A stretch of DNA of 47,200 nucleotides from Archaeoglobus sp. JdFR-27 (lineage in GTDB: Archaea > Halobacteriota > Archaeoglobi > Archaeoglobales > Archaeoglobaceae). The first letter of the stretch is position 1, and each line of letters begins with the position of its first letter. Positions 13,782 through 35,525 of the stretch are shown here, one piece after another. The translations under genes and the position numbers were made by a program. The DNA lies in the NCBI GenBank assembly GCA_002011235.1, contig MTMO01000044.1, positions 79,025 to 126,224 on the forward strand. The letters are read 5' to 3'. The notes under the pieces were generated by a model. The model saw only the letters and a program-made list of their open reading frames with translations. It had not been told where the DNA came from and ran no database searches.

Positions 13782-14297
13782 TTAAATTTCCTCATTTTTT
13801 GCAAGTTCTACAAGCTGGCCCTTTATATTAAGCTTAAGTGACCTCTTTGCAGCGGCCCTTATGAAAAGGGGATCAAGTTGAAGACTCCTGCTTATATGCG
13901 GTACTGACATCCTGCCCACGTTTATTTCCTGAATTATTTTGGAAACTATTTCCTCAAGTTCGTCATCCGGTAGAAAGATAACCTCGAGTATTTTGTTTAG
14001 ATCTTTCAATGAGGCGAAGAAGTTAGCGCTAAGATGAGTATAGCTGACATGATATTCCTTCTCTGGTGTACCTCCAGGGTTCAAGGGCATCCTCCATCTA
14101 ACCTCAAGCATTCCAGCATGCTTCAAGATTTTTAATGCCTCTTCAACACCATCGCCGAATTCTCTCTCCAGTTCCTCATGGGTCATCCATCTGTCAAGCA
14201 GAGATTCATAAACTCTTCTGTATATTTTAGTTGAAAATATCTGAAGAATCGGAACCAGTTCCACGATATCGCTGACGAGCTTTGCCCTTTTTGCCAT
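13782..14297 (-). CDS. ArsR-like winged-helix transcriptional regulator
   Basis: Start fixed at ATG 14297 by a good archaeal ribosome-binding site, GGTGAT at 14306-14301 with a three-base spacer; the frame extends eight codons further but those overlap the RBS. The 171-residue protein has a winged-helix section (IYRRVYESLLDRWMTHEELE through ALKILKHAGMLEVRW, residues ~25-75), a beta-hairpin wing rich in Pro/Gly, and a C-terminal helical part with a second possible HTH (MSVPHISRSLQLDPLFIRAA). It resembles conserved archaeal regulators of unknown ligand; no metal-binding cysteine pattern is seen. It heads the leftward run ending with argH-gatD and may be autoregulatory. Confidence 0.72.
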   Translation of the reverse strand: MAKRAKLVSDIVELVPILQIFSTKIYRRVYESLLDRWMTHEELEREFGDGVEEALKILKHAGMLEVRWRMPLNPGGTPEKEYHVSYTHLSANFFASLKDLNKILEVIFLPDDELEEIVSKIIQEINVGRMSVPHISRSLQLDPLFIRAAAKRSLKLNIKGQLVELAKNEEI

Positions 14298-14453
14298 TCC
14301 ATCACCTTCAAAAATAATCAAAAAAGATTGACCTCTGGGATATTTTTAGTTTTCTATCCTTTTTTGTTTACACTTTGCTTAGCTTCAAAATCTCAAATTA
14401 CAAAAACACGAAAGACATAAAACTCCAGCCGAGAACCATCAAAGGGTGCAATT

Positions 14454-14954
14454 ATGGTTGATGTGAAAGTGAAAAAAGATGCGGGAACTTCCAAAAAATT
14501 GAGACCAGACCTTGATACGTACTTCATGAACATAGCAAAGGTGGTTGCAAAAAGATCGACATGCTTAAGGCAGAATGTTGGGGCGGTTATAGTGAAGGAT
14601 AAAAGAATCCTATCTACGGGTTACAATGGTGCTCCCACGAGTTTACCCCATTGTCTCGATATAGGCTGCTTGAGAGAGGAGCTGAACGTTGCTTCTGGAG
14701 AGAGACATGAACTTTGCAGAGCCGTACATGCTGAGCAGAATGCTATAATCCAAGCTGCAGTCCATGGAGTCAGTATTGTTGGAGGGACACTCTATACAAC
14801 TCATCAACCGTGCATAATGTGTGCAAAAATGATAATTAATGCGAAAATAAAGAAAGTCGTTTACGGAAAAATGTATGCCGATGAGAAAGGACTGGAATTT
14901 CTGAAACAAGCCAATGTAGAATTAGTTTACCGACCATCAAATGAAGAAGATTGA
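14454..14954 (+). CDS. dCMP deaminase / ComE-type zinc deaminase
   Basis: Cytidine-deaminase-fold enzyme (166 aa) that converts dCMP to dUMP for dTTP synthesis. Zinc ligands and the catalytic Glu are in HAEQNAI (His92, Glu94) and PCIMC (Cys120, Cys123). A second zinc-site-like set (His66, Cys67, Cys72 around [12 protein letters not shown]) is also typical of dCMP deaminases. It has its own promoter-like AT-rich upstream region and no close neighbour on the same strand. Confidence 0.93.
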
Positions 14955-15000: not shown

Positions 15001-15006
15001 AAAAAA
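15001..15006 (-). terminator. T6 terminator of the H/ACA sRNA
   Basis: Reading on the minus strand, six T residues follow the ACA box by one base; a T-run directly after a structured RNA is the expected archaeal terminator. Confidence 0.6.
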
Positions 15007-15065
15007 GTGTAGCCCACCCTGTGGGATTCCCCTCATCGCTCAGGGAACTCATGGCGGGTGGGCAT
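15007..15065 (-). ncRNA. H/ACA guide sRNA (predicted pseudouridylation guide)
   Basis: On the minus strand a GC-rich hairpin has all parts of an archaeal single-hairpin H/ACA RNA. The lower stem is GCCCACCC (15063-15056) with GGGTGGGC (15019-15012), eight perfect pairs. Above it is a pocket with strands GCCATGAG and TCCCACA, then an upper stem TTCCC/GGGAA closed by a loop TGAGCGATGA that fits a K-loop (CTGA plus GATGA) for L7Ae. After the lower stem comes one base and then ACA (15010-15008). The top of the pocket is 16 bases from the ACA, as the 14-16 rule requires. Predicted target form: 5' UGUGGGA-Psi-N-CUCAUGGC 3' (up to partial pairing). The rRNA site is not identified here. Confidence 0.8.
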
Positions 15066-15084
15066 TCAGAGTTGAATTTACTGG

Positions 15085-15100
15085 TATAAAATTCCTTCGC
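15085..15100 (-). promoter_or_regulatory. BRE/TATA promoter of the H/ACA sRNA
   Basis: Minus-strand GCGAAGGAATTTTATA: purine-rich BRE followed by TATA box AATTTTATA (15093-15085), centred about 25 bases before the first base of the predicted sRNA stem. Confidence 0.65.
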
Positions 15101-15178: not shown

Positions 15179-15616
15179 ATGATACGAAAGCTAGCTTTAA
15201 TTCTAATAATCTCAGGGTTTATTCTTATTCTTGCATCCCAGATAAATTCCGGTTCAGATAGAGTTGAGTGGAAAAATTACCGGCAAGCACTCGATCTGGC
15301 AAAAAAGGATGACAAACTCATTTTTATCTATTTCTATTCCGAATCCTGCGAATACTGTAGAGCGATGAGTGATAATGTTTTCTCTGACGAACACATCGCA
15401 AAAATCCTTAACAAAGACTTTGTCCCGGCAAAGGTTAACGTGATGACGGACTCTGCGATCGTTAAGAAATTCATACCTATCTTTAAAGAAAAAAAGGTAT
15501 ATTTTGTTACACCATCCTACATTATCTTGGATTCAAATGAACGGATAATCGACATTAAGAATGGTTATCTCGAAAAAAAAGAGTTCGAGAATTTTATAAT
15601 CAATATAAATAAATAA
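15179..15616 (+). CDS. Membrane-anchored thioredoxin-like protein
   Basis: A 145-residue thioredoxin-fold protein (thioredoxin_7/DsbD-gamma style). Residues 5-22 form an N-terminal signal anchor, placing the domain outside the membrane. The redox motif is CEYC in YSESCEYCRAM near residues 57-60, and the cis-proline is in VTPSYI near residue 113. Probably reduces or oxidises disulfides of extracytoplasmic or membrane proteins. TATA-like AAATATCC lies upstream of ATG. It precedes htpX in the same direction by 45 bases, suggesting a shared envelope quality-control role, though this is inference. Confidence 0.85.
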   Translation: MIRKLALILIISGFILILASQINSGSDRVEWKNYRQALDLAKKDDKLIFIYFYSESCEYCRAMSDNVFSDEHIAKILNKDFVPAKVNVMTDSAIVKKFIPIFKEKKVYFVTPSYIILDSNERIIDIKNGYLEKKEFENFIININK

Positions 15617-23226: not shown

Positions 23227-23301
23227 TAGCGGGGCGTGGATTTGAACCACGGATCTGCGGGTTATGAGCCCGCCGGGATTACCTGGCTACCCCACCCCGC
23301 T
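23227..23301 (-). tRNA. Initiator tRNA-Met (anticodon CAT)
   Basis: On the minus strand the acceptor arms AGCGGGG (23301-23295) and CCCCGCT (23234-23228) give the archaeal initiator A1-U72 pair. The anticodon stem GCGGG/CCCGC ends in three G-C pairs around the loop CTCATAA (anticodon CAT), the initiator hallmark. The T arm CGTGG-TTCAAAT-CCACG is intact. Discriminator A at 23227; CCA is not encoded. Confidence 0.96.
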
Positions 23302-34508: not shown

Positions 34509-35525
34509 ATGAGGTTTGCCGGAATCGATCCAGGAACTGCAAGTTATGAAATTTTCATTCTTGAGAATGAGAAACCCTTTAAAAAAATAGAGGTTTCTAC
34601 AGCAGAAGTAAGAGAAAACCCTGAAAAATTTAGGGAGATTTTAGCCAAGATCGAGGCTGATTTAATTGCTGGACTTTCCGGATACGGTATGCCAATTAGA
34701 AGGTTTTCAGAGCTAACTGAGAAGGATGTTTTCCTCTTAACTCTCAATACCGATCCAAAAGCTACGATGGGAATGAGAATGCTCATAGAAATTGCAAAAG
34801 AACTTGACTTAAACATCTACACAATTCCAGGGGTTATCCATCTTCCAACTGTTCCAGAGTATAGAAAGATCAACCGGATAGACCTGGGAACTGCCGACAA
34901 ACTTTGTTCAGCTATCTTGGGCATTAAACAGTTAAATGAGTCCCCTAACTTTTTACTCGTCGAATCTGGTTTCGGTTTTAATGCGTTTATTGCTGTCAGG
35001 AACGGGAAAATAGTTGATGGATTGGGTGGGAGCTCCTCTTTTCCCGCTTTCTCTTCCTTAGGAGCGATAGATGGAGAACTCGCGTACCTCCTTAAACCGT
35101 TCCCTAAAGAAATGCTTTTTTCGGGTGGTATAAGGAGCTATTTTAAAGACAAAGGGATGAGTATCAGAAAGATCTCGGATCTTCCTTTAGAAGCTCTACA
35201 GTGGTTCGCAGAATATCTTATGAAGGGGATTAGAGCGGTAGAAGTTTCATGCAAGGTAGAAAGGATTCTGCTCTCTGGAAAAAATTTCTCTTATGCAGAA
35301 TTTACAAAAATTTTCAGAGAAATGGCAGAAGATTTTGGATATGAATGCGAAAGGCTAAAAGGATTTGGAATTGCCAAGCAATCAGCTGAGGGAGCTGCAG
35401 TAATAGCTAACGGATTGGGAGGAGGTAAATTTAAAGAGATCATAGAGAAAGCAGAGATTTTAAATGCAAGGGGAACCGTTTTAGATTACATAACCTCTGA
35501 CATAAGAAAATATCTCAGAATTTAG
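34509..35525 (+). CDS. DUF1464 predicted butyrate kinase (COG2441)
   Basis: ASKHA-fold protein of 338 aa. The phosphate-1-like motif is MRFAGIDPGTASYEIF at the N-terminus; further glycine motifs are LVESGFGFNAFIAV near 155, GLGGSSSFPAFSSLGAIDGE near 172 and LLSGKNFSYAE near 256. The family has been predicted to phosphorylate butyrate or another small acid, without proof I know of. Leaderless-looking start with TTTTTAATG. Confidence 0.82.
   Translation: MRFAGIDPGTASYEIFILENEKPFKKIEVSTAEVRENPEKFREILAKIEADLIAGLSGYGMPIRRFSELTEKDVFLLTLNTDPKATMGMRMLIEIAKELDLNIYTIPGVIHLPTVPEYRKINRIDLGTADKLCSAILGIKQLNESPNFLLVESGFGFNAFIAVRNGKIVDGLGGSSSFPAFSSLGAIDGELAYLLKPFPKEMLFSGGIRSYFKDKGMSIRKISDLPLEALQWFAEYLMKGIRAVEVSCKVERILLSGKNFSYAEFTKIFREMAEDFGYECERLKGFGIAKQSAEGAAVIANGLGGGKFKEIIEKAEILNARGTVLDYITSDIRKYLRI

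Follow-up and report, generated by a model that had tools for sequence, protein, structure and literature searches.

The window analysed here, a stretch of 47,200 nucleotides from Archaeoglobus sp. JdFR-27, carries an H/ACA guide sRNA gene on its minus strand (15063-15001), a single hairpin accompanied by a TATA box and a T6 tract. The gene occupies the 224-nt spacer between two plus-strand genes, which serve here as context only: a dCMP/cytidine deaminase-like gene (14454-14954; PF00383, 5.4e-28) and a thioredoxin-like gene (15179-15616; PF13098, PF03190). An earlier sequence-only reading described the sRNA as antisense to the flanking genes. It does lie on the opposite strand, but it overlaps neither of them. 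An ArsR-type regulator gene (PF09824, 7.6e-63) at 13782-14321 is divergent from the deaminase gene, and the window also contains two tRNA genes (712-785 and 23227-23301).

The minus strand from 15063 to 15001 reads GCCCACCC-GCCAUG-A-GUUCCC-UGAGCGAUGAG-GGGAAU-C-CCAC-A-GGGUGGGC-U-ACA-C-UUUUUU and folds into a hairpin with an internal loop (-28.9 kcal/mol, z = -3.75), a stability equalled by no shuffled sequence. The lower stem is formed by the 5' arm GCCCACCC (15056-15063) and the 3' arm GGGUGGGC (15012-15019); its 8 bp are followed by one nucleotide and then by the ACA box (15010-15008), in keeping with H/ACA stems of 7-9 bp having an ACA or ANA just 3'. The internal loop is lined by the 5' guide strand GCCAUG (15050-15055) and the 3' guide strand CCAC (15021-15024). 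Above it, the upper (GA) stem pairs GUUCCC (15043-15048) with GGGAAU (15026-15031) and is capped by an apical K-loop, UGAGCGAUGAG (15032-15042), which is a putative L7Ae site. The UGA columns flanking the apical loop are nearly invariant among 52 homologs, and the UGA...UGA pattern, present in 46 of them, matches a K-loop for L7Ae at the level of sequence. The 8-bp lower stem, pocket, upper stem with K-loop, ACA box and T6 tract named in the sequence-only reading could thus each be located on the minus strand.

The motif alone does not prove an H/ACA RNA, since a loose H/ACA descriptor is matched about 1.3 times per random 47-kb window. A second match in this window (plus strand, 34548-34601) was rejected because it is AT-rich, lies inside an ORF and folds otherwise. 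We therefore turn to the relatives, and this comparison of sequences settles that the H/ACA gene is real and conserved. A DNA search found relatives of the sRNA in eight other genomes of Archaeoglobaceae. The covariance model built from nine sequences detects the sRNA in 49 of 55 Archaeoglobaceae genomes, always as one single copy and covering all 13 genera, with E values of 1e-8 to 1e-16 (around 1e-15 for a genome). Among 295 genomes of the phylum, it finds three copies outside the family (G036, G038 and G170): one genome comes from another family within the order, one from another within the class and one from another within the phylum. Scans against Rfam returned no family matching the sRNA. 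Across 52 sequences, standard pairs make up 94.4% of the pair cells, and pairing falls to 52-59% when partners are slid by one base. Two-sided changes occur in 9 of the 14 pairs (51 distinct sequences), five of them among the eight lower-stem pairs and four among the six upper-stem pairs, so stem covariation, whose loss in relatives would have spoken against the sRNA, is retained. The covariation score is 0.261 versus 0.125 for shuffled alignments, and none of 500 shuffles scored as high; as the 52-sequence alignment was fitted to the covariance model, this result is biased towards the structure. A nine-sequence MAFFT alignment agrees, with 0 of 500 shuffles reaching the observed values for either paired cells or covariation score. 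Conservation, covariation and the invariant ACA (52/52) and pocket together give strong support to the H/ACA sRNA that the earlier reading had placed on this strand. Two homologs have a longer apical part: the one in G007 (L152:268-351) has an added stem, AUCCCC/GGGGGAU, and apparently a K-turn instead of a K-loop, and the one in G170 (L154) is without a clear fold there.

The deaminase gene (window 14454-14954) adjoins the sRNA in several same-genus relatives (L126, L125, L134 and L111) and lies near it in G017. No deaminase match was found beside the remaining homologs, for some of which only about 250 bases of flank were available. The sRNA therefore appears to have changed its genomic surroundings over time.

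We then inspected the signals for transcription. A BRE/TATA promoter element, CGAAGGAA-TTTTATA, is located at 15085-15099 on the minus strand, beginning and ending some 35 and 21 nt, respectively, ahead of the hairpin, with the TATA-like TTTTATA at 15091-15085. In 52 aligned homologous upstream regions, the AT fraction reaches 0.90-0.96 at -27 to -23, which is the place of the archaeal TATA box, and positions -33/-32 are A-rich. The T6 tract at 15001-15006 is a likely terminator in the window; it is not a conserved feature, as a run of at least five T follows the sRNA in only 16 of 52 homologs. The complete transcription unit proposed earlier is thus plausible, its own promoter being strongly supported, with the AT peak as evidence, and its likely terminator being present but unconserved.

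To define the guide pocket, we compared the unpaired columns of the homologs. None of the 52 sequences departs from GCCAUG or CCAC, whereas on each side the single base that separates the guide strand from the upper stem is variable. As the pocket letters are invariant and the adjoining bases variable, GCCAUG and CCAC are assigned as the guide strands, with the ACA at 14 nt. This spacing, counted to the ACA from the first base of the 3' guide strand, is found in 50 of 52 homologs and falls within the 14-16 nt expected from the pocket-closing pair. The sequence-only reading had set the ACA at 16 nt; counting the conserved G-U pair, together with the mismatched layer under the upper stem, brings the distance to 14 nt. 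This single mismatched layer (A.C in the window) lies between guide and upper stem, and the earlier pocket was too wide because the upper stem continues further. The archaeal rule, as given in PMC4652768, is 14-15 nt to the ACA and a GA stem of 10 layers.

The draft genome of JdFR-27 is 99.7% complete and has no detectable 16S or 23S rRNA gene, a common assembly gap in drafts. The pairing was consequently tested on relatives only, with 13 usable 16S rRNAs and four 23S rRNAs. The guide strands form 10 of 10 Watson-Crick pairs with 16S GUGG-[U]G-CAUGGC, GCCAUG pairing with CAUGGC and CCAC with GUGG, at one site per 16S in 13 of 13 relatives. The four 23S rRNAs contain no match to the GCCAUG/CCAC pocket, so that the bipartite U-N pairing has a unique 10-pair site in the rRNA of relatives. 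On the 3' side the guide duplex is short, at 4 bp. Among 1000 shuffled pockets, 5 reached 10 contiguous pairs. The wider pocket of the earlier reading, GCCAUGAG/UCCCACA, has no site in 16S or 23S rRNA with at least three contiguous pairs on each side, and scanning both for its target string UGUGGGA-UN-CUCAUGGC gave no usable site, whereas GCCAUG/CCAC(A) pairs 10/10 with 16S. Our first pocket scans, in which the upper stem was closed too high and which also covered the flanks of rRNA loci, had returned scattered weak sites. The target U is position 1004 of the 16S rRNA in G035 and corresponds approximately to E. coli U1052 in helix 34, beside the decoding nucleotide C1054. Hence, the sRNA most likely directs pseudouridine formation at one 16S uridine near the decoding site, as predicted from this pairing.

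G035 is a one-contig assembly of 2.2 Mb with a single homolog of the sRNA (C1:220967-221026). Over 117 residues, its L7Ae has the same sequence as PDB 1rlg, which is the L7Ae of A. fulgidus, and on this ground we identify G035 as A. fulgidus. The A. fulgidus sRNA Af190 has been assigned to 16S position 1004 (PMC4652768, citing Tang et al., 2002). Given that the G035 target is also at 1004, the window sRNA is most likely the Af190 ortholog; the assignment is based on the shared target position together with the single-copy G035 homolog. The proposed comparison with known Archaeoglobus H/ACA RNAs thus yields a match by position rather than by sequence. The two share RNA type and predicted 16S U1004 target, but they belong to different species and differ in stem and loop sequences. 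Another close system is the single-hairpin H/ACA sRNAs of Pyrococcus abyssi ('10/5/9' fold, subfamily 65; PMC4652768), which share the 6-nt 5' and 5-nt 3' pocket strands, the 14 nt to the ACA and, if the window's mismatch is counted, the GA stem of 10 layers. Their guide sequences differ from that of the window sRNA. Pa19-S1017 of P. abyssi may be a site equivalent to its target. Cbf5, L7Ae, Nop10 and Gar1 are all encoded in the JdFR-27 genome.

Three other explanations were weighed. An inverted repeat or a bidirectional or intrinsic terminator between two genes could resemble an H/ACA RNA by chance, as the descriptor frequency allows and as the comparable stability of the plus strand (-29.2 kcal/mol) might suggest. 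Such an element would not keep a pocket, an ACA and covarying stems, and all 52 sequences, many of them flanked by different genes, have the same unpaired letters in pocket and ACA, which makes this reading extremely improbable. We give equally little credence to a decayed or silent copy: transcription in JdFR-27 is predicted from the DNA, but the invariant positions, stems and TATA box are all intact in what is the sole copy in the genome.

A real guide with another or an additional target, be it UGUGGGA-UN-CUCAUGGC, another rRNA uridine, a tRNA or an mRNA, is unlikely, though less so than these two. For other archaeal guides, targets outside the ribosome have been suggested (PMC4652768), and when the pocket is set in other registers, as many as 9 contiguous pairs can form with rRNA. 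However, invariance is limited to GCCAUG/CCAC while the bases between strands and stem vary, the earlier target string lacks an rRNA site, and the chosen register fits the 14-nt rule and 10-layer GA stem published in PMC4652768. We therefore regard it as very probable that the predicted gene encodes a single-hairpin archaeal H/ACA guide sRNA, orthologous to Af190, with its own promoter and the 16S U1004-equivalent as target. In JdFR-27, the sRNA would be transcribed from this promoter and assemble with L7Ae at the K-loop and with Cbf5, Nop10 and Gar1. GCCAUG and CCAC would pair with GUGG-[U]G-CAUGGC, placing the U within the active site of Cbf5, which would isomerise it to pseudouridine.

The sRNA is of a class already known, and it most likely corresponds to a guide reported earlier from A. 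fulgidus. The analysis provides a corrected target, a pocket register and a structural model for an sRNA without a matching Rfam family, and shows that 49 of the 55 Archaeoglobaceae genomes have kept the guide. That hyperthermophile ribosomes carry a pseudouridine next to their decoding centre is a testable prediction, but biology of a known kind. As the guide is kept with an invariant pocket beyond Archaeoglobaceae, the helix 34 pseudouridine may be old and functionally constrained in this archaeal lineage, a suggestion that we offer tentatively and at somewhat less than even chances.
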